Below, piece after piece: positions 23,071 through 39,273 of a stretch of DNA of 39,273 bases. The translations under genes and the position numbers were made by a program. Where the stretch lies: contig JAGXLF010000008.1 of assembly GCA_018334835.1 (NCBI GenBank), positions 1 to 39,273 of the forward strand. The letters are read 5' to 3'. Position 1 is the first letter of the stretch. Every line of letters begins with the position of its first letter. This DNA is from Thermoplasmatota archaeon (GTDB lineage Archaea > Thermoplasmatota > Thermoplasmata > Halarchaeoplasmatales > Halarchaeoplasmataceae). Under the pieces are notes generated by a model. That model was not told where the DNA came from, did no database searches, and was given only the letters and a program-made list of their open reading frames with translations.

Positions 23071-24726
23071 TTACCGTTCATCAGGTGGAAGTACCTCTAT
23101 CATTCTTACGTTTTTGTTGTATCCTATGGTAGGTATAGCGTGCTCCTCGGGATCTTCAGCATGTGGCCATGTAACATAGTCCTGATATGCGTGTCTTGAA
23201 AATTGACTGTGCAGGAATAGAGACGGAGACATCTCTAGCAGGTCTTTTTGTAATTGTTCATACAGGGCAAATCTGTCTTCTTTGTTGGGTTCTGCGAGAG
23301 CGTCTTCAATCATTCCGTCTATTGTATCGTTCTCCAACCACTCGTTCTGTTCCCAACTGTCAGCGGTATCGGAGTGATATCTAGCTTGCAAAAGACCACC
23401 TGCCTCGGGGAATTGAGCGGTGACCCAAACCATCGTGACATGGGGCGAATCTTCTTTATTAGACATCGCGTCGATAAGAGCTCCCCATTGATATTTGTTC
23501 GATTCACCTTCCAGCCCGATATCATCTAAATTGCCCGCTAACATTAATGCCACTTTCTCTGTTGCTGGAACTTGTGCCGTCCAACTAATTTCAATCTTGT
23601 AATCGCTAGGATTTTCCACTATATCTGGATAGTATTTTGATTTCTGAAGTTCCTCTTCAGCCTTTGTAATGTTTCGTCTGGGCATGTCCAGCTCTGTCGC
23701 ACCAGGAAGTACTGATGGTATGATCCCATTTGGGAGTCTACTACTAGGGAATATTTCTTCTATCTGTTCTGTATAATTGAATGAGTAAGCAATAGCTTTC
23801 CTTACATGGACGCAATCAAGTGGTTCTTTCTGGGTATGCATCTGGCCATAGAATGCCCCGCCAGAAAAATATGCACCAGTTTTCCCATCATGGTCATCTG
23901 CAATCTCTGTCACCGTGCCATATTCAAGCCATTCGGAAGTTACCTCAAGACTTTCTTCACCGAACATAGATCTTTCTGTTGTAGGGTCTCCAAGAGCTAA
24001 CATTCTGAACTCATCCGGTGCATTATCTGCCATAGGTCCCCAGTAATCTTCGTTTTTCTCACCGTAGAAATGGTCCGTTACATCAGCATCGTACACCTCG
24101 TAAGGCCCCGTACCTGCACTGTTCTCTAGAAGATAGGATTTGCCGAGGTCGTGGCCCCATGGTTCATATACGAGATCTGCGTCCTCATCCGCATGATTTA
24201 GTACATCTTCTTTGTCCACGATATATAGCCTAGTTAATGTAGATAAGAAAACACCTCGTGGTTCCTCAAGAACGAACTTAACCGTGTAGTCGTCTACCAC
24301 AGTCGAATTTTCAATGTCGACGTGTTCATCGAAAAGGAAGGCGAATCCTTGGCCTATTGTCGTCAATCTTTCCATGGAGAACATAACGTCTTCAGCAGTC
24401 ATTTCGTTTCCGCTGTGGAAAGTCACATCATCTCTCAAATCAAAGGTATATTCTGTCCCGTCTTCTGAGATCGTCCAGTCTTCTGCTATCCAAGGTTCAA
24501 CACCCGTTTGAGTTGGGAATACTAGAGGATCATAGAAATTCGTGTATGCAGTACTACTAGATTCGTCAGTTCCTATCGCAGGATCTATTTCAGTGGGCCA
24601 TGAAAAGCCCATTCTAAGTATAGCTTTGCTTTCTTCTTCGTCAGGTTCAACACATCCTGAAAAAGCAACACCAGAAATCACCAGGATCCCAAACACCAAT
24701 ATAGCGATATGTTTTTTGTTTAACAT
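23071..24726 (-). CDS. Peptide ABC transporter substrate-binding lipoprotein, operon 1
   Basis: A 551-residue family 5 solute-binding protein. The N-terminus MLNKKHIAILVFGILVIS is a signal segment ending in the lipobox FSGC, with Cys25 as lipid attachment site, so the mature protein is anchored outside the membrane. Typical motifs are SEDGTEYTFDLRDDVTFHSG, MTAEDVMFSMERL and VRKAIAYSFNYTEQIEEIF. It captures peptides (or nickel or sugars in related families) for OppBCDF. ATG 24726 fits the signal peptide and AAGGA ten nt upstream. A GTG at 24765 lies at the predicted transcription start and would add a charged leader, so I reject it. Confidence 0.9.
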   Translation of the reverse strand: MLNKKHIAILVFGILVISGVAFSGCVEPDEEESKAILRMGFSWPTEIDPAIGTDESSSTAYTNFYDPLVFPTQTGVEPWIAEDWTISEDGTEYTFDLRDDVTFHSGNEMTAEDVMFSMERLTTIGQGFAFLFDEHVDIENSTVVDDYTVKFVLEEPRGVFLSTLTRLYIVDKEDVLNHADEDADLVYEPWGHDLGKSYLLENSAGTGPYEVYDADVTDHFYGEKNEDYWGPMADNAPDEFRMLALGDPTTERSMFGEESLEVTSEWLEYGTVTEIADDHDGKTGAYFSGGAFYGQMHTQKEPLDCVHVRKAIAYSFNYTEQIEEIFPSSRLPNGIIPSVLPGATELDMPRRNITKAEEELQKSKYYPDIVENPSDYKIEISWTAQVPATEKVALMLAGNLDDIGLEGESNKYQWGALIDAMSNKEDSPHVTMVWVTAQFPEAGGLLQARYHSDTADSWEQNEWLENDTIDGMIEDALAEPNKEDRFALYEQLQKDLLEMSPSLFLHSQFSRHAYQDYVTWPHAEDPEEHAIPTIGYNKNVRMIEVLPPDER

Positions 24727-24765
24727 TTTATCTTTTTCCTTTGTTTTTTTTGGTTTTCCTCGCAC

Positions 24766-28431: not shown

Positions 28432-30564
28432 TCAATTTTTTTCTTTTTCATTTTCTAGTAGATCATTAATTTTCCTAGCTTCCTTTACTTTTTGTAGTTT
28501 TTTCCCGGTCCAGATGAAATAAAATATGAAGAAGATAACAGGTAACATTATCAAAAGAAACAATAAATAGGACCCGATAGTTCCTTCAAAAAGCTCAGGA
28601 TAAACCAATGCTGTAGCTATCGGAAGGAAAAGACCTATACTAAAGATGATGATCACCTTCAAATGGTGTAAATTATCGTCACACTTCTCAGCTTTTTTCT
28701 TTTCTTTTTCTGTCACATCAATGGGCTCTCTGCTGATTGGACCACCGATAATAGACTCAGGTATCTGAAACTCAGGAGGAAGTATATTCTTTTCAGTTTT
28801 AAGTTCATGTTCGACCGCCTTTTTAACTTCCTTCCTAGCATCGAACACCTTTTTGTTATAAAAAGCCAATAAAAGAAGAATAGGTGGAGGCACCAATGCG
28901 GAGAATAGAACTAGGAATACGTTTTCATGTGCACTTCCAACTGCTACAGAGATTAATAGAAGAGCCATTATTCCAACCATGCCGAAGATTACCGGTTTCT
29001 CTAGTCTAATTTTCCTTTGTATCTCGTCCCAATCTTCTTTTGTATAATATAAGAAGTCATCTGATTTCTTTTCATATGCATGGTTCCCCTCGTAAATATT
29101 GTTCCATTTGGATCCTAAAACCTCATTCATAGCTTTCTCAAATTCTTTTATCTTTCTGTCCCTACCGATTGAAAAAAGGATCTTTCCCTTCCTTCCATCA
29201 ATAGTTAAAATCTCATATCCTCTTTTTTCAGAAGATTTTTTATTATAATCTGGTTTAATTTCCTTCATTTCATCCAAATCTACCTTTCGGACCATATTTT
29301 TGAAGTGCTCTTGAAGAATGCTTGTTGAAAGATAGAGAGTTTCTGAGTTAATTTTGACTTCTCTAAACATCCCTATAAACCCCACCATCGAAGGAATCCA
29401 TAAAGATCCGACAAAAAATATAGATATCCATAGTCCGATCGGTATCAACAAGTCCTTTTGGATAAATAAATAAAAGATGAAGCAAACTAGCGAAAAAATA
29501 CCTAATGTACCCAAAAGTATAGCTTCATCGAAAGGTATCTTATTTTCCTTGAAGTGATAATTTCCTCCCTCAGGACTTTGCCTGTCTAATTCTGACCAGA
29601 TGATCAATGCTCCCAAAACAAAGGTCCCAATTGCGACTAGAGGAAAAAACAGAGGTACTTCTGGTTGAGGGTGTATCTTAGTCTTTAGAATCCCGGCTGA
29701 GTCAAAAACATGTATTCTGTTGCTGGTCGTTACAAAAATTTTCTCTCCATAAACAGTAAGATCCTCTATTTGATCCTCCTCAAAACCAATTTCGGTTATT
29801 AACTCCTCGCTTTCTAAGTCCCGAAGATTAAAATTTTTCCGACCATCGGAAAAAACTACTCGCTCATCGTATTCGGTGAATTCAACAAGGTTCATCCCCT
29901 TTTTCAACTTACGCTCAAAAAGGAGAGTTGACGTAGTCGAGTTATAGATTTCTAATTTATCCTCGTAGGCTACCGCTAATTTTCCATCATTAGAAAAAGA
30001 ACAGTCGGTTATTCCCTTACGCTTTGAAATATTTCTCTTACTATCTTGCGATAATACGTATATGCCGGCATTCTCATTCCAGACTGCTACAGAGCCATTA
30101 GGAGAAACACAAAATCCGTCGATTCTTTCGTCAGATGAATAATTAAAGGTAATTTTTCCCTCTTCGAATCTTACAATTCTATCGTTTCCGAGCAAAGCGT
30201 AAAGCTTTTTATTGAATTGGAGAGAGTTGATAGATAGTTCACTCTCAAAATAATGTTCGATTTTCTCTCCTTCTTCGTAGGTCATGATTTCGCCATGTTC
30301 AGTTCCTAAGAATAATTTGTTTTCCTCTGGAAAAGATGCATGATCTGTAACTTCATATCCGGTTTTCACTATTTCTTTCCTTTTCACGTCTTTCCGATCC
30401 CATATTTCGATTCCTTTTTCAGAAGATACAAAGACATTCTCATTGGATACCGCTGTTCTTTTACCATCCTTAATCCTAGGGTGATTAAATGGTATTTGAG
30501 ATAAAATAAGAGTTAGGAAAAGTAGAAAAATTAACACCGCTAAAACGGCTCTTAAGCGTTTCAT
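28432..30564 (-). CDS. Membrane protein with N-terminal beta-propeller-like domain, unknown
   Basis: A 710-residue protein. It starts with a membrane anchor (about 7-24), followed by about 270 residues of repeating beta units with WD40/PQQ-like turns, such as GIEIWDRKDVKR, GEIMTYEEGEKI and RIHVFDSAG, which should form an external propeller. Further hydrophobic segments lie near 307-327, 346-368, 372-398, 535-580 and 643-695, with cytoplasmic charged regions between them, including a stretch with EILTIDGRKGKILFSIGRDRK that resembles a PH-like or DUF-type fold. The tail is lysine- and glutamate-rich. I do not recognise a family for the whole protein. The upstream TATA suggests a leaderless message starting at ATG 30564. 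Confidence 0.75.
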   Translation of the reverse strand: MKRLRAVLAVLIFLLFLTLILSQIPFNHPRIKDGKRTAVSNENVFVSSEKGIEIWDRKDVKRKEIVKTGYEVTDHASFPEENKLFLGTEHGEIMTYEEGEKIEHYFESELSINSLQFNKKLYALLGNDRIVRFEEGKITFNYSSDERIDGFCVSPNGSVAVWNENAGIYVLSQDSKRNISKRKGITDCSFSNDGKLAVAYEDKLEIYNSTTSTLLFERKLKKGMNLVEFTEYDERVVFSDGRKNFNLRDLESEELITEIGFEEDQIEDLTVYGEKIFVTTSNRIHVFDSAGILKTKIHPQPEVPLFFPLVAIGTFVLGALIIWSELDRQSPEGGNYHFKENKIPFDEAILLGTLGIFSLVCFIFYLFIQKDLLIPIGLWISIFFVGSLWIPSMVGFIGMFREVKINSETLYLSTSILQEHFKNMVRKVDLDEMKEIKPDYNKKSSEKRGYEILTIDGRKGKILFSIGRDRKIKEFEKAMNEVLGSKWNNIYEGNHAYEKKSDDFLYYTKEDWDEIQRKIRLEKPVIFGMVGIMALLLISVAVGSAHENVFLVLFSALVPPPILLLLAFYNKKVFDARKEVKKAVEHELKTEKNILPPEFQIPESIIGGPISREPIDVTEKEKKKAEKCDDNLHHLKVIIIFSIGLFLPIATALVYPELFEGTIGSYLLFLLIMLPVIFFIFYFIWTGKKLQKVKEARKINDLLENEKEKN

Positions 30565-30900: not shown

Positions 30901-31353
30901 ATGAACAGTTACGTGACTCTCCTGAGCGATAATAGAACCGCATTGAACAGCTTGTGGGCGATCTTGAAGTATAAAAGATTCGAACCTGACAAGATCCTAC
31001 TGATATCGAGTGATGGCGAAACGACTGTAGATGAACTAGTTAAGGATTTTAAGGAACTCTTGAAAAATTATGAGATTGACTGTTCAATTGAATCAAAGTC
31101 TATAGAAGAGATCCATAATGTTGGGGAAATTGTAAGTGATTTTGTCACGGATGGAAGTGAAAAAGTTGCATTAGATATCAGCGCCGCATCTAAATATATG
31201 ACTGCTAAAGTCATTATAGATTCAAGACCAGACCTGTTCGATCATGTATTTTATCTGGATGTTGAAGGTATCGATTTGAAAGAGAGACCTTTTCCAACGA
31301 TCGAAAAAAGTAAAGTTAAACTGAAAGACCTCAGATCTGATGGTGAGAGGTAG
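30901..31353 (+). CDS. CARF-like Rossmann-fold protein
   Basis: A 150-residue stand-alone domain. The order of elements follows the CARF (CRISPR-associated Rossmann fold) plan: first strand YVTLLSDNRTAL (4-15), second strand DKILLISSD (30-38), a helix, then a strand and helix KVALDISAASKYMTAKVI (88-105), and a last strand DHVFYLDVEG (114-123). In CARF proteins of the Card1/Can2 type the last-but-one motif is TGGTKxM, which binds cyclic oligoadenylate; here it is ISAASKYM, so ligand binding may be altered. No HTH or nuclease is attached. A PIN-type nuclease gene starts six bases after its stop. No CRISPR array or cas gene is in the window. Assigned by pattern, not by search. Confidence 0.6.
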   Translation: MNSYVTLLSDNRTALNSLWAILKYKRFEPDKILLISSDGETTVDELVKDFKELLKNYEIDCSIESKSIEEIHNVGEIVSDFVTDGSEKVALDISAASKYMTAKVIIDSRPDLFDHVFYLDVEGIDLKERPFPTIEKSKVKLKDLRSDGER

Positions 31354-31359
31354 ATATAG

Positions 31360-32433
31360 ATGGAAGAGATATTCAGTAAAGAAGAGTTGATGATATTTTT
31401 GAATCAGATAGAGGAGGAGGGATTATCTGAATTTGAGGTCATAGAGCCCTACTTTGAAAATAGACTTTTGAAAGTGGATATGAAGGATGGAGAATATGAG
31501 GTGGAATTGAGTGGTAAAAGCGACTTCGAGATGCCGATATCGAAGGACGAATATTGGGACAAGGATGAGATTCCAGGATTCAGAGAGTACAAAGAGTGTC
31601 TCATCTCTTCAGGGTTCGTGGAATATGAAAACTGGGACAGATTCAAGCATTGGATAAGATCTCTCTATGAGAGCGAGAAGGACCCAGGTCTTTCTAGCGA
31701 ATCCATATTTTTGACCATCGATACCAATCTAGCCTATTACCGCTTCATCTCGAGAAAATTCCCCCTGAGATACGACGATATGACAATCGATGCTAAAGAT
31801 TTTGATTATCTTTTGAGTTCGATAGTCGAAAGTGAGATAGATCATCATATACGGGACAAGTATGGCGACTCTGATCTCAAGATGATGGGCATGCACACAG
31901 AAATAGGGGATATCAGATATGAATTTAGGAATCGTGGTACACTAGAGACGAGGAAATCTAAATTCGCTACTGAGGAGCTGAACTATCTCAGAGGAGAACT
32001 GAACTCCGCTAGGGTCAAGGGAAAGGTTTCGAAGACGGATTCTGAGAAAAACGATATAATGATAGTCGAATCTCTAGAGGAGTTCTGCTGGGAGAAGAAT
32101 ATCGACGTGGCTCTTTTATCTACAGACAGGAATATGGGTAATCATGCTGAGAATGCCGAGATAGCCTTTTTCATTCTAGAGATGCCCCACAGCATACCCA
32201 AGAGGAAAAAAGTCGACTCCGAGATCATATTGAATCTACTTCACGACATGGCTCTCATGTATGGAGTCATACAGATACCTGAACTGAGTACCGACCTCCT
32301 CGGAATATGGGGTGGAAAGAAAGACGACCATTATAGTTCTGAGAGCGTGAAGGCTTGGGTCAATCCCGGTTCTCCGGTAGAGTCTCAGTTGAAGAGGGAT
32401 ATGAATGTATTGAATTCCTTGAAAACTTTCTAA
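31360..32433 (+). CDS. PIN-domain ribonuclease with unknown N-terminal region
   Basis: A 357-residue protein. Residues about 115-275 show the acidic pattern of a PIN nuclease in order: IFLTIDTNLAYYRF (Asp121, Asn123), SIVESEIDHHI (Glu157/Glu159), KNDIMIVESLEEF (Asp232) and ALLSTDRNMGNHAE (Asp256). The N-terminal 110 residues are acidic and unfamiliar. The last 80 include a helical segment (EIILNLLHDMALMYGVI) and a short tail with GIWGGKK. PIN proteins cut single-stranded RNA with divalent metal. GAGAGGTAG precedes the ATG, and the gene is surely co-transcribed with the CARF-like gene. The pair may form a ligand-controlled nuclease. It ends nine bases from the convergent cysS. Confidence 0.72.
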   Translation: MEEIFSKEELMIFLNQIEEEGLSEFEVIEPYFENRLLKVDMKDGEYEVELSGKSDFEMPISKDEYWDKDEIPGFREYKECLISSGFVEYENWDRFKHWIRSLYESEKDPGLSSESIFLTIDTNLAYYRFISRKFPLRYDDMTIDAKDFDYLLSSIVESEIDHHIRDKYGDSDLKMMGMHTEIGDIRYEFRNRGTLETRKSKFATEELNYLRGELNSARVKGKVSKTDSEKNDIMIVESLEEFCWEKNIDVALLSTDRNMGNHAENAEIAFFILEMPHSIPKRKKVDSEIILNLLHDMALMYGVIQIPELSTDLLGIWGGKKDDHYSSESVKAWVNPGSPVESQLKRDMNVLNSLKTF

Positions 32434-33943: not shown

Positions 33944-34882
33944 TTACTTATATCTATGACATGCGATTTTTCTTCCGTAGGCCTCGATCAGGTCGGGGTT
34001 ATCCCTCTCGCAAACACTCTGGCTTCTTGGGCATCTAGGGGCAAAAGCGCAGCCTTCAGGTGGATTTACCGGGCTCGGGACCTGTCCAGTTAGAGGAGCT
34101 TCTACTTTTTCATCAGGGTCAGGCTGGGGGACAGATTTGAATAAAGCCTGAGTGTAGGGATGTTTTGGCTCATTGAATATATCGGTACTATCTCCGATCT
34201 CTACCAATTTACCTAAATACATCACACCTAGTCTATCGCTGATTGCTCTCACTAGATTTATATTGTGTGAGATGAACATGTAAGATACTTTGAATTTCCT
34301 CTTTGCTCTGTCCAGCAATTTAAGGATTTTAGATTGTACAGAAACGTCGAGTGCAGAGGTAGGCTCATCTAGAACTAAAAAATCAGGTTCTAAACATAGA
34401 GCTCTAGCAATACACACCCTTTGTTTTTGCCCACCGCTCAATTCGTGAGGATATCTGATTAGATGTTCTGCTTTCAGGCCCATGGTATTCAAGATATCGA
34501 CCATCCTTCTGAGTTTTTCTTCTTCTGAATCCACCATGTTGTGTATCACTAGAGGTCGGTTCAGGTGGTCATAAACTGTCATCTGGGGATTCAAGGCGCT
34601 CACCGGATCTTGGAAAACTATGTTCATCTTTTTTCTCAAACTTCTCATGTCTTCTCCGTCCAAATTGGTGATATCCTTTCCATCAAAGTAAATCTTGCCT
34701 GAGGTGGGCTTTATCAGTTTTAAGATAGTTCTTCCTAGAGTGGTTTTTCCACATCCGCTTTCACCTACCACACCTAGAGTTTCTCCTTTAATGACGTTAA
34801 TAGAGACATCGTTGACAGCCTTAACGGTCCCTTTTTTGGAATCGAAGAATTTTTTCAAATTTTCAGTCTCAACTAAATTCAC
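33944..34882 (-). CDS. oppF: Oligopeptide ABC transporter ATPase OppF-like, operon 2
   Basis: A 312-residue ATPase with all motifs canonical: Walker A GESGCGKTT, Q-loop VFQDPVSALNPQ, signature LSGGQKQRV, Walker B FLVLDEPTSALD and switch histidine in MFISHNINLV. The C-terminal PPEGCAFAPRCPRSQSVC is the peptide-subfamily extension. It starts with GTG that overlaps the OppD stop (GTGA), behind GGAGGTAGA. It contrasts with the degenerate OppF of operon 1. It is the last gene of operon 2. Confidence 0.92.
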   Translation of the reverse strand: MNLVETENLKKFFDSKKGTVKAVNDVSINVIKGETLGVVGESGCGKTTLGRTILKLIKPTSGKIYFDGKDITNLDGEDMRSLRKKMNIVFQDPVSALNPQMTVYDHLNRPLVIHNMVDSEEEKLRRMVDILNTMGLKAEHLIRYPHELSGGQKQRVCIARALCLEPDFLVLDEPTSALDVSVQSKILKLLDRAKRKFKVSYMFISHNINLVRAISDRLGVMYLGKLVEIGDSTDIFNEPKHPYTQALFKSVPQPDPDEKVEAPLTGQVPSPVNPPEGCAFAPRCPRSQSVCERDNPDLIEAYGRKIACHRYK

Positions 34883-35874
34883 TCTACCTCCTCCCAGAAG
34901 TGACAGGCGACGAAATGGTCTTTCTCAATTTCCTCCAGTTCTGGCTTTTTCTCCTTGCAGATTTCTCGAGCATATTCACATCGAGGATGGAATCTACACC
35001 CAGAAGGAGGATTTATCAGTCTGGGTACAGTACCAGGTATAGTTTCGAACTCCTCTATACTTTCCATGACCCCGGGTACAGAATGTATAAGCCCTATTGT
35101 ATAGGGATGTTTTGGATTTTTGAAGAGTTCATGGACATCAGCTTTTTCGGCTATTTGACCACCATACATGACTGTGACAACATCACATATCTCTGAGATT
35201 ACAGCCATGTCATGCGTGATATATAGGATAGAAAGATCTCGGCTTTCCTTTAACCCTCTTAAGATTTTCAAAAATTGAGCTTGTATCGAAACATCTAGTG
35301 CCGTAGTGGGTTCGTCAGCGATCAATAGATTAGAATTACAAGCTAACATCATCGCGATCATGACTCTCTGCTGCATACCCCCGCTCAACTCATGGGGGTA
35401 CTTATCATAGACGTCCTCAGGATCAGGTAGCTTAACTCTATCGAGTTCATCTAGCACTAATTTCTGTGCTTCTTTTTTGTCGTCACTCTGGTAAATTACG
35501 ACAGATTCTTTTATCTGCTCTCCAGCAGTGTAAACGGGGTTCAATGAAGTTGAAGGGTTCTGGAAGATCATGCTTATCTCATTACCTCTGATTTTCTGTC
35601 TGAGATCTTCATCGTTCATTTTTAGGAGATTAACACCTTTGTAAAGGACTTCACCCCCTCGGATTCTCGCATTATTGTCCAATAGACCCAATGTAGTCAA
35701 ACTAGTCACGGATTTTCCACAACCCGTTTCGCCTATCACCCCATGGATTTCTCCTTTCTTGACGGTAATATTTATCCCATCAAGAGCTTTGACTGTGCCT
35801 TCTTCAGTTTTAAATTCTAGTTTCAAATCTTCAATTACTAGTAAAGGATCTCCCACATGAATATCACTAGACAT
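34879..35874 (-). CDS. oppD: Oligopeptide ABC transporter ATPase OppD-like, operon 2
   Basis: A 331-residue ATPase with Walker A GETGCGKSV, Q-loop IFQNPSTSLNPV, signature LSGGMQQRV, Walker B LLIADEPTTALD and switch histidine in YITHDMAVI, all intact. The end carries SGCRFHPRCEYAREIC. I place the start at ATG 35874, one base after the OppC stop, with GAGGTG about nine nt upstream; the in-frame GTG at 35886 is inside that site. It acts with the OppF at 33944-34882. Confidence 0.92.
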   Translation of the reverse strand: MSSDIHVGDPLLVIEDLKLEFKTEEGTVKALDGINITVKKGEIHGVIGETGCGKSVTSLTTLGLLDNNARIRGGEVLYKGVNLLKMNDEDLRQKIRGNEISMIFQNPSTSLNPVYTAGEQIKESVVIYQSDDKKEAQKLVLDELDRVKLPDPEDVYDKYPHELSGGMQQRVMIAMMLACNSNLLIADEPTTALDVSIQAQFLKILRGLKESRDLSILYITHDMAVISEICDVVTVMYGGQIAEKADVHELFKNPKHPYTIGLIHSVPGVMESIEEFETIPGTVPRLINPPSGCRFHPRCEYAREICKEKKPELEEIEKDHFVACHFWEEVE

Positions 35875-35875
35875 C

Positions 35876-36799
35876 CTATTTTCCACCTCTTCTTACCGGA
35901 TCTAAAGCATCTCTTAAACCGTCACCTACGAAGTTAAAAGCTAAAACAGTAATCACTATGGCCATACCTGAAACTGTAACTAGTAAAGGATTGAATTGCA
36001 TATATACAGAACCCGATTTCACCATTTCACCCCAACTAGATGTAGGCGGTTGTATTCCAACTCCAAGATAGTTTAAAGCGGCAGCAGCAAGAATGGCCCA
36101 AGGAATTTGTATTGTTGCCATTACAACTATTGAGGGAAGAATGTTTGGTAAGAAATACCTTAAGACAATGTGGGTCTTACTTTCTCCGATAGCTTCTGCA
36201 CTTTCAATAAACATTTCATTTTTGATAGAGAGGACTTCACCTCTTGTAATTCGAGCAAATCTTGTCCACATCACGAGACCTACTGCAATTATAACCGGAT
36301 AAAGTCCAAACCCAAGTGATGTAGCTAGGGCCAATCCAAAGATAAGAGTAGGAAATGCAAGAAAAGCATCTACTGTTCTCATAATTACCTCGTCGATCCA
36401 TCCTCCTTTCGTACCTGCTATCAAACCTAAGGTGACTCCAATCCCACCCGAAACAAAAACTACAAGAAGACCTATTAATAAAGCTATACGGGCACCGTAC
36501 ATTAATCTAGAGAGGGTATCCCTTCCTAATTGGTCTGTTCCCAAAGGATGTTCTAAAGAAGGATAAGCCCTTGTGTTATAAATATCAGTTTTTATAGGGT
36601 CATGCGGAGCTAGAATCGGGGCGAAGATTGCCACTATTATTAACATTAATAGCACTCCTAATCCAAATAGCGCCAATTTATTCCTTTTAAATCTCAACCA
36701 CACTAGCTCTATTTGGCTAGTTTCCTTTTTCTTTAGATCTTCTATTTCTTTTTCTAGATCAATTTCTTTTTCTCCAAAGTAAGAATCATCTTTGGTCAC
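35876..36799 (-). CDS. oppC: Oligopeptide ABC transporter permease OppC-like, operon 2
   Basis: A 307-residue permease. A charged N-terminus of about 35 residues precedes TM1 and the family motif HPLGTDQLGRDTLSRLMYG. The docking loop reads EMFIESAEAIGESKTHIVLR, and the end is FVGDGLRDALDP. Six membrane segments are expected. It starts with GTG 36799 behind GAGGAGGTATAATA, three bases after the OppB stop. Confidence 0.92.
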   Translation of the reverse strand: MTKDDSYFGEKEIDLEKEIEDLKKKETSQIELVWLRFKRNKLALFGLGVLLMLIIVAIFAPILAPHDPIKTDIYNTRAYPSLEHPLGTDQLGRDTLSRLMYGARIALLIGLLVVFVSGGIGVTLGLIAGTKGGWIDEVIMRTVDAFLAFPTLIFGLALATSLGFGLYPVIIAVGLVMWTRFARITRGEVLSIKNEMFIESAEAIGESKTHIVLRYFLPNILPSIVVMATIQIPWAILAAAALNYLGVGIQPPTSSWGEMVKSGSVYMQFNPLLVTVSGMAIVITVLAFNFVGDGLRDALDPVRRGGK

Positions 36800-36801
36800 T
36801 A

Positions 36802-37764
36802 TTATACCTCCTCGTGAGAACCTAAATCAATTCGAGGATCGATAAAGGTATAGGCGATATCTGCTCCAAGATTAGCTATCACCGCTATTATTACCATAAT
36901 TAGAATAGAGCTTTGAACAGCTATGAAATCTCTAGACAGTGTAGCTGTAAGTATAAAACGGCCCATACCAGGTATATTAAAGATCTGTTCAGTAATCATC
37001 CCGTATCCAAATAACCACGGTAGCCTCATTGCAATGACTGTCACTACAGGTATAAGAGCGTTTCTTAAAGCATGTTTTATAATTACGATATGTTTTTTTA
37101 ACCCCTTTGTCTGAGCGGTTTTTATATAATCTTGATCCAATACATTTAACATACTTGATCTTGTTAGTCTAGCTATAATAGCTTGCAATCTTATTCCAAT
37201 GACAATTGCAGGCAATATCAAATAATATATATTTTCATAGCCTCCAGTAGGGAATAAATTTAGATAAAATGCGAAAATTAGTAAAAATATTGTTCCTACC
37301 CAAAAACTTGGTGCAGAACGCCAAAATAAAGCCTGCATAGATGCTAAATAATCAATCCAAGTATTATGATTCAAAGCACCAATTACCCCTGTTCCAATTC
37401 CTAAAACTATAGAGATAGAGAGGGCAAGAGCCATTAATTGAAAGGTGATAGAGACTTTTGGTTTAATAAGCTCAGTAATCGGTTCATCATATCTCAAGGA
37501 AGTGCCTAAATCTCCTCTAAATAAACCAACCATCCAATCAATGTATTGACGATACAATGGTTTGTTAAGTCCATGTTTTGCGTTAAATTCTTCAATCATC
37601 TCTTCAGTTGCGTGTAAACCTAAAATTCTCCTAGCGGGGTCTGGATCCCCTACCCTCATGACGGCAAAAGCGATGAAGGTAGCAAGTAATATAACAGGTA
37701 TTGATTTTAAAATCCTTTTTATAATGAATCTCTTTCTTTTACTTTTGATGTATTTCTCTAACAT
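36802..37764 (-). CDS. oppB: Oligopeptide ABC transporter permease OppB-like, operon 2
   Basis: A 320-residue permease. The basic start precedes FIIKRILKSIPVILLATFIAF (first membrane segment), then FNAKHGLNKPLYRQYIDW and five further membrane segments. The docking loop is DQDYIKTAQTKGLKKHIVI, and the end IAYTFIDPRIDLG is typical. The ATG has GAGGAG six nt upstream. Its AT content is higher than that of most genes nearby. Confidence 0.91.
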   Translation of the reverse strand: MLEKYIKSKRKRFIIKRILKSIPVILLATFIAFAVMRVGDPDPARRILGLHATEEMIEEFNAKHGLNKPLYRQYIDWMVGLFRGDLGTSLRYDEPITELIKPKVSITFQLMALALSISIVLGIGTGVIGALNHNTWIDYLASMQALFWRSAPSFWVGTIFLLIFAFYLNLFPTGGYENIYYLILPAIVIGIRLQAIIARLTRSSMLNVLDQDYIKTAQTKGLKKHIVIIKHALRNALIPVVTVIAMRLPWLFGYGMITEQIFNIPGMGRFILTATLSRDFIAVQSSILIMVIIAVIANLGADIAYTFIDPRIDLGSHEEV

Positions 37765-37838: not shown

Positions 37839-39273
37839 TTAAAGCTCCCAAAGGTGGGTTTTGTAATAAGGTCCGTCGTACATATATGAAGTGAATGCTT
37901 CTTCGGGTATAGTCACTGATTCGTGGTATACTATGGGTTGTTGAGTAAATCCAACAACGTAGACTGCCATATTATCTTCTATTAAGTATTTCTGTATCTC
38001 TTTATATTTTTCCATTCTATCCTCGTAATCGATTGTTTTCATTGCGTCCTCCATCATATCGTTGAACTGAGAATCGTTATAGAAATTACCCCAGAAGTTT
38101 TTTTCGCTAGTATTCATATAGTAAGTCATTTTGTCAAAACCGGAAGGACCAGCGGTGAGATGATGATAGTTCATTTCAGTTTCTCCAGCTTGCATCATCT
38201 CAACAAAAGTTCCCCACTCTACACTTTGTACCTCTAAATCAATTCCTGCTTCTGCGACCTGCTCACTGACTAGGGTCATCTCATCTGTTCTATCACCTGG
38301 ATTAGTATGTATCGTTAATTCAACTCCATCTGGATAACCAGCTTCATCAAGTAACTCTTTAGCTTTTGTGATGTTTTGTTCGTATTGATTCGCATTTTCA
38401 GGATAAGCTGGATGACCAGGTTCGTAAAGGTATCTGGAATTTATAGCCAATTCCTTTCTTTTGAAATCTATTACTTCTTGGCTATCAACGGCATATGCAA
38501 ATGCTTTTCGAACTTTTACATCCTGTAATGGCCCCTCCATTTTATGGTTGAACTTTATATTTACAGCTCCTGGATGATGGTATGCCTTTGATTTAATGTT
38601 TTCCTCTCCTTTTAAGTCTTGATAGTGTGTTGTATCAATGGGATGAACAGCATGTATATTTCCTGCTCTCAAATCAGTTACCGCAGAAGATTGGTCGTCA
38701 TAAAAGTGTAGAATTAGTTTCTCTGCATTCACATCTAATCTATAGTCTTCAAATTTTTCCAAAACAATTTGATCGCCAGGTGAGTACTCCTTAAACTTAA
38801 AAGGCCCACTGCCTATGAGTTCATCTTGATAATTCTCGTATCCGTTTTCAACTATGTAGTCTTTTGGAATGACAGAAAAATCTTGTACAAATTCCCCTTC
38901 TAGTAATTCTGCGTATACTTCGTCCATTTGTATTTCTAATGTGTAATCATCGGTTGCCTCTACAGAGGAGATTTCGGTTGTATGCATTTTCATAACTGAC
39001 TCAGGTACCCCTGTTACGCCATGTTTTTCTTCAGCTTTACCCATTATAGCGTGGAAGGTAAATGCAACATCTTCTGCTGTTAACTCCTCACCATTATGGA
39101 ATTGGATCCCTTCTTTTATCTCAAAAGTGTACGTTAGACCGTCCTCGCTCACTTCGTAACTTTCTGCCACAGCCCTGCCTTCAGTATTGGGTTGTCCATC
39201 GGGATAATTCTGGACCAATGGATCAAATATTTGAAGATTAGTAAATCGTCCATAGTCTCCTGTAGTGCCAATA
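37839..39273 (-). CDS. Peptide ABC transporter substrate-binding protein, operon 2 (partial)
   Basis: The 3' 478 codons of a family 5 solute-binding protein; the frame is open to the window edge, so the signal peptide and about 60-80 residues are missing. No start codon lies in the visible part; the TTG at 39218 is internal (FDPLVQNYPDG). Typical stretches are SEDGLTYTFEIKEGIQFHNG, LTAEDVAFTFHAIMG, VRKAFAYAVDSQEVIDF and KAKELLDEAGYPDG. It delivers peptides to OppBCDF of the same operon. A weak stem (AGTGT/ACACT) follows the stop before oppB. It is not close in sequence to the operon 1 binding protein, so different ligands are likely. Confidence 0.92.
   Translation of the reverse strand, partial: IGTTGDYGRFTNLQIFDPLVQNYPDGQPNTEGRAVAESYEVSEDGLTYTFEIKEGIQFHNGEELTAEDVAFTFHAIMGKAEEKHGVTGVPESVMKMHTTEISSVEATDDYTLEIQMDEVYAELLEGEFVQDFSVIPKDYIVENGYENYQDELIGSGPFKFKEYSPGDQIVLEKFEDYRLDVNAEKLILHFYDDQSSAVTDLRAGNIHAVHPIDTTHYQDLKGEENIKSKAYHHPGAVNIKFNHKMEGPLQDVKVRKAFAYAVDSQEVIDFKRKELAINSRYLYEPGHPAYPENANQYEQNITKAKELLDEAGYPDGVELTIHTNPGDRTDEMTLVSEQVAEAGIDLEVQSVEWGTFVEMMQAGETEMNYHHLTAGPSGFDKMTYYMNTSEKNFWGNFYNDSQFNDMMEDAMKTIDYEDRMEKYKEIQKYLIEDNMAVYVVGFTQQPIVYHESVTIPEEAFTSYMYDGPYYKTHLWEL

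Follow-up and report, generated by a model that had tools for sequence, protein, structure and literature searches.

A predicted split CARF_m1-PIN module outside CRISPR loci in Thermoplasmatota and on haloarchaeal plasmids

What is understood of CARF sensors concerns almost exclusively their reading of the cyclic oligoadenylates (cOAs) made by Cas10. We analysed a 39,273-nucleotide stretch of DNA from a Thermoplasmatota archaeon (contig C105; hereafter the window), in which an original prediction had described a two-gene module, a CARF-like sensor followed by a PIN nuclease, without CRISPR. Its two open reading frames lie where they had been placed, at 30901–31353 and 31360–32433 on the forward strand; they encode proteins of 150 and 357 aa and are separated by 6 nt. 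A CARF–nuclease module that is intact in many archaea without Cas10, and is also borne on plasmids alongside other defence systems, poses a testable question: which ligand does it read, and which enzyme makes that ligand?

Two genes aligning to one fused CARF-PIN model

The first gene (30901–31353, TAG stop included) encodes a 150-aa protein that matched the PADLOC CARF_m1 model PDLC01971 (E = 9e-14), and the same assignment was obtained for all 25 family members tested. No CARF match to this protein was found in Pfam or NCBIfam, and the assignment rests on the PADLOC, profile and structure matches. Its AlphaFold model (pLDDT 90) shows alternating strands and helices in a Rossmann-like strand order, and together with the PDB matches it corresponds to the six-stranded fold of the CARF superfamily. 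The structural matches found by Foldseek were SiRe_0806, Card1, Cad1 and Csa3, with SiRe_0806 at the top (E = 5e-6, TM 0.70), which agrees with the CARF strand order that had been read from the translation. A profile of the CARF family also finds SiRe_0806 by sequence (E = 3e-4), with FDITPGRKYM aligned to the family motif. Neither the domain search nor the AlphaFold model of the 150-aa protein revealed a DNA-binding domain.

The second gene (31360–32433, forward strand) encodes a predicted RNase subunit of the PIN type. Its 357-aa product matched the PADLOC model CARF_m1-PIN (PDLC01973; E = 7.6e-22), residues 6–331 aligning to profile positions 173–452, and PADLOC assigned the PIN in 25 of the 25 family members tested. 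Pfam PIN_4 gave E = 4.7e-4, just under the cut-off. The PIN fold that had been proposed is supported by the AlphaFold model (pLDDT 86) and by the top Foldseek match, again SiRe_0806 (E = 2e-6). The N-terminal region had been called unfamiliar, a description that does not hold, since it lies within the alignment to the known fused profile and corresponds to the region following CARF in fused relatives.

The predicted fold is accompanied by the four-carboxylate metal site of the PIN superfamily. Asp121 (31720–31722) and Asp232 (32053–32055) are invariant in both sets of aligned relatives (20/20 and 58/58), and Asp256 (32125–32127) is invariant in the 20 and is aspartate in 55 and glutamate in 3 of the wider set of 58. 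These three positions were proposed correctly, and for the fourth, given originally as Glu157/159, the invariant residue is Glu159 (31834–31836; 20/20, and 51/52 in the wider set) and not Glu157.

The 150-aa protein matched positions 1–145 of the fused PADLOC CARF_m1-PIN model, so that both reading frames align to it in order and the boundary between the genes coincides with the linker of the fused protein. When the fused model was compared with the window's own genome in six frames, a single match spanned both genes (E = 1.7e-31). From these matches and the structure models, the pair is best described as a split CARF_m1-PIN module. A Shine-Dalgarno-like GAGAGGT (31345–31351, forward strand), read from the sequence, lies within the 3' end of the CARF gene ahead of the PIN gene, which suggests that the two genes are translationally coupled.

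The split is a constant property of the family. The arrangement could be examined at 56 loci where the sequence reaches far enough upstream, 45 of them spread over 42 genomes of Thermoplasmatota and 11 on plasmids of haloarchaea. At all 56, the end of the CARF gene falls somewhere from 11 nt ahead of the PIN start to 14 nt beyond it, the order is the same, and no CARF-PIN fusion was seen; two more PIN matches that start at a contig edge were left out of this count. All strong CARF matches in the 41 nearest genomes adjoin a PIN match. The CARF-PIN pairing is thus obligate, and the two genes are encoded separately and occur together across archaea as had been anticipated. Neither of the outcomes named beforehand as fatal to the prediction, lack of a CARF or PIN fold and genes that never co-occur, came true. 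Where dS was measurable, dN was well below dS for both genes, indicating purifying selection.

In the family, a small upstream gene overlapping a downstream PIN nuclease, the obligate pairing and the plasmid copies would also suit a toxin-antitoxin-like pair, in which the CARF protein merely neutralises the nuclease and senses no ligand. We regard this as very unlikely, because the upstream protein is a CARF with conserved ligand-site residues rather than a VapB-type antitoxin, and because in the fused homologue, which was crystallised with cA4, a single chain carries both domains.

Ligand motif and evolutionary rate of the CARF gene

The published CARF signature following strand 4 is [DN]x[ST]xxx[RK] (PMC4012209), and the window CARF fits it with D92-I-S94-A-A-S-K98 (31174–31194, forward strand). 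Among the aligned relatives, the first position is D, E or N in 59/59, the second is S or T in 59/59, and the last is K or R in 55/59, the lysine being gone in four relatives. Most relatives carry D-[IV]-[ST]-[GP]-[GA]-x-K, near D-I-T-(G/P)-G-R-K; L061, for example, has DITGGRK. The ISAASKYM motif was located correctly (residues 93–100), but its reading as a changed ligand motif was overstated: glycine and arginine are indeed replaced by A96 and S97, and the motif still fits the signature, which makes it a lineage variant rather than a new motif of the whole family.

Three residues of this motif in the ring nuclease Sso2081, namely G104, R105 and K106, touch cA4 or the scissile phosphate (PMC10018336). 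G104 and R105 correspond to A96 and S97 in the window CARF, where the key lysine alone is retained. Can2 and Card1 carry the motif lysine without the arginine (PMC10018336), so the loss of the arginine by itself does not exclude cA4. The absence of the motif II glycine and arginine from the window CARF, and of the lysine from four relatives, nevertheless counts against the reading that we prefer below, a ligand-gated RNase.

The similarity to Sso2081 extends to the profile level (E = 3e-4), and NCBI names some haloarchaeal copies 'CRISPR-associated ring nuclease', so that the CARF protein might mainly destroy cyclic oligoadenylate. This is extremely improbable. Crn1-like ring nucleases have a motif I, Gly-Thr-Ser, following strand 1 (PMC10018336); the family does not conserve it, the window CARF having L8-S9-D10 instead, and a ring nuclease would need no obligate PIN partner. 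The lack of a conserved motif I makes a sensor role the more likely one.

The CARF gene evolves faster than the PIN gene in the window's haloalkaliphilic family (30901–32433 of the window and L056–L066), with a CARF/PIN tree-distance ratio of 2.8 and a dN ratio of 2.0–3.4, compared with 0.78 and 0.6–0.8 in most other Thermoplasmatota, L079–L080 being the exception. As dS is mostly saturated, these ratios do not distinguish relaxed constraint from changing ligand specificity.

Distribution, Cas10 and gene neighbourhoods

The pair is common in the window's family (24/41 relatives) and patchy across the phylum (21/293 evenly drawn genomes). Those close relatives of both genes that are named belong to haloalkaliphilic Thermoplasmata, among them Candidatus Saliniplasma, Haladaptatiplasma and Halarchaeoplasma. 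Some genomes of the window's family and class carry a second subfamily of the pair, a divergent one with about 25% PIN identity (L104–L108: G004:C126, G004:C68, G008:C51, G005:C87 and G025:C17); one of these genomes, G004, has two copies.

The absence of cas genes noted originally was borne out, as the window yielded no cas gene and its own genome (1.7 Mb, 83.6% complete) no match to Cas1, Csm1 or Cmr2; that genome shows no Cas10 of the kind that accompanies a type III ancillary effector. Of the 42 genomes that carry the pair, a Cas10 palm-2 domain was detected in 3 (3/31 of the high-quality ones) and was not found in the other 39 (28/31), and the Csm1 and Cmr2 models agreed with this result for near relatives. 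No Cas10 was found in four relatives of the window's genus that are 93–94% complete. Cas1 occurs in 13 of 41 relatives, the window's genome not among them. The distance to cas10 was called for in the original prediction: where Cas10 is present, it lies about 400 kb from the pair (G027) or on other contigs (G211 and G261), and it stands beside the pair in none of the three genomes. The pair is thus no part of a CRISPR locus. Overall, the observation is confirmed, and its interpretation held for the folds, the split, the pairing and the lack of CRISPR linkage, though not for the novelty of the motif or the unfamiliar N-terminus.

An ordinary type III ancillary effector acting in trans, with Cas10 missing only through genome incompleteness, is distinctly unlikely on these counts. 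The cA4 with which SiRe_0806 was crystallised, the 83.6% completeness of the window's genome and the three genomes having both Cas10 and the pair speak for it; the lack of a palm domain in 28 of the 31 high-quality genomes and the remote position of Cas10 where it occurs speak against it. The absence of the palm domain from 39 of 42 genomes also means that the usual source of cOA is missing, which counts against our preferred reading too. Two other signal sources were considered and rejected. As for c-di-AMP as a general ligand, the window's genome encodes a DAC-domain cyclase, but such a cyclase was found in just 15 of the 24 genomes searched. For a CD-NTase (SMODS) partner, only weak matches were obtained, most of them in frames of 437–477 aa that, judging from their length, resemble CCA-adding enzymes.

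The neighbours of the pair in Thermoplasmatota are mainly housekeeping genes, including transporters, a tRNA synthetase and amino-acid enzymes, and the position is conserved within genera. In the window's genus the neighbour is CysRS, and in related genera the neighbours, named by eye from the sequence, look like DNA polymerase and phosphoglycerate kinase. Such a stable location among housekeeping genes is unusual for defence. Across distant Thermoplasmatota lineages, the neighbour survey found no third family recurring beside the pair other than Csa3-like genes and common ABC-transporter ATPases. A scan for sigma-70 promoters gave hits at chance level, with a model that is not apt for archaea. 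Elsewhere in the window, a 710-aa protein (28432–30564, reverse strand) has weak matches to WD40-type beta-propellers and no clear family, and two family-5 solute-binding proteins are encoded on the reverse strand (23071–24765 and 37839–39218), the latter grouped with oligopeptide/dipeptide-type ABC transporter genes (33944–37764).

The haloarchaeal copies are plasmid-borne and located in variable regions (L113–L118 and L124–L128). Several of these plasmid records carry the pair near PglX and BrxE, DrmE, or a BrxD-like ATPase with DpdA, that is, near genes of BREX, DISARM and Dpd type. Also recurring near the plasmid copies are VWA, HEAT-repeat and ADP-ribosylglycohydrolase genes, or UvrD and PD-(D/E)XK genes. 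The PIN copies of Halobaculum, Halorientalis and Haloplanus share about 96% of their residues, and identity up to this level between different haloarchaeal genera indicates recent transfer. No PIN relatives were found in viral contigs or phage records.

The stable chromosomal position in Thermoplasmatota without Cas10, and the faster-evolving CARF of the window's family, would also fit an RNase with a housekeeping or stress role whose trigger is an RNA end or fragment and not a cyclic nucleotide. RtcR offers a precedent, since its CARF domain binds tRNA fragments with a 2',3'-cyclic phosphate terminus (PMC7790460). We consider such gating unlikely, because most CARFs of the RtcR type have no Lys/Arg following strand 4 (PMC4012209), a residue that is kept here in 55 of 59 relatives, and because the patchy spread (21/293 phylum genomes) and the copies in plasmid defence islands are not housekeeping-like.

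Two tandem Csa3-like CARF regulators, of which one has an evident winged-helix domain, lie immediately upstream of the pair in four Methanomassiliicoccales-type loci (L072:6195–7468, L074:2049–3321, L075:6197–7469 and L076:6198–7470), forming with it a four-gene cluster that contains three CARF proteins. Neither Cas10 nor Cas1 was detected in the genome carrying L075 (G038, 94% complete), so that three CARF proteins cluster there in the absence of any known cOA synthase. At L077 the pair is kept and the Csa3-like genes are absent. A single Csa3-like gene adjoins the pair in Haloferax, and others were found at L102, L105 and L108, the last two belonging to the divergent subfamily. It is conceivable, though rather doubtful, that the pair and its Csa3-like neighbours in several archaeal lineages read a second messenger from a Cas10-independent enzyme, or an RNA-derived ligand, and that the specificity of the sensor is moving towards a new ligand in the haloalkaliphilic Thermoplasmata.

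Proposed function and comparison with known systems

The reading that we prefer, with a probability of about two in three, is that the pair is the CARF_m1-PIN effector in two-subunit form and serves in defence or stress as an RNase gated by its CARF. A second messenger of nucleotide type would be bound by the CARF protein, probably a dimer, which would hold or allosterically gate the PIN subunit, whose four carboxylates would bind metal and cut RNA. Activation might then lead to dormancy or cell death as an antiviral or stress defence. This reading draws on both predicted folds, the conserved catalytic and ligand-site residues and the obligate pairing, as well as the homology of both halves to one cA4-bound fused protein, the lack of Cas10 linkage and the plasmid defence-island context; the physical CARF-PIN complex, the cutting of RNA, the control by a ligand and the biological role are inferred. 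Given the homology to SiRe_0806, cyclic oligoadenylate is the first candidate ligand, and the absence of Cas10 makes a different nucleotide, as originally suggested, possible. The two-subunit split also offers a handle on how a CARF gates a nuclease, as sensor and nuclease can be purified separately and mixed.

The pair resembles several known systems in part. As in VapBC, a PIN nuclease is encoded downstream of, and overlapping, a small gene, but the partner here is a CARF and not a VapB-type DNA-binding antitoxin, and the PIN protein of the window is far larger than VapC. RtcR likewise has a CARF outside CRISPR with a different ligand (PMC7790460), whereas it is an AAA+ transcription activator without a nuclease, and RtcR-family CARFs mostly lack the conserved Lys/Arg. 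In Csm6/Csx1, Card1, Can2 and other type III CARF effectors, a CARF sensor controls a nuclease, as proposed here, but Csm6/Csx1, Card1 and Can2 are single chains with HEPN or PD-(D/E)xK nucleases and typically occur with type III loci. PIN RNases are listed among cOA effectors (PMC12669027). In a literature search that did not cover the classification paper (doi 10.1093/nar/gkaa635), we found no description of the obligate two-gene form, its Cas10-less distribution, its plasmid defence-island copies or its link to Csa3-like genes, and no biochemical activity was found in the literature search for any family member.

The known, catalogued forms already include CARF_m1, stand-alone CARF_m1 and CARF_m1-PIN fusions, and for one fused relative a structure with bound cA4 exists. 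The PADLOC models PDLC01971, PDLC01972 (stand-alone CARF) and PDLC01973 (CARF_PIN) matched the family CARFs and PINs, 25 of 25 each, and they describe CARF_m1 alone or fused to PIN; none of them represents a separate PIN as an obligate partner. SiRe_0806 comes from Sulfolobus islandicus, a member of a group of archaea having type III CRISPR. It is the best structural match of both window proteins separately and was crystallised as apo form (PDB 9JXW) and with cA4 (PDB 9JXX), the link to cA4 being taken from the PDB entry titles alone; no paper on it was found in the literature search. SiRe_0806 has the same domain order as the pair and a D-I-T-P-G-R-K motif like that of many relatives, but it shares only about 20% identity with the window CARF and is one fused chain, whereas the window version consists of two genes and its family is usually found in genomes without Cas10. 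The CARF_m1 domain and the C-terminal PIN with its four acidic residues are both present in the pair. As they lie on separate genes in 56 of 56 loci and not in one chain, we file the pair as a split variant rather than as a plain member of the SiRe_0806-like CARF_m1-PIN family.
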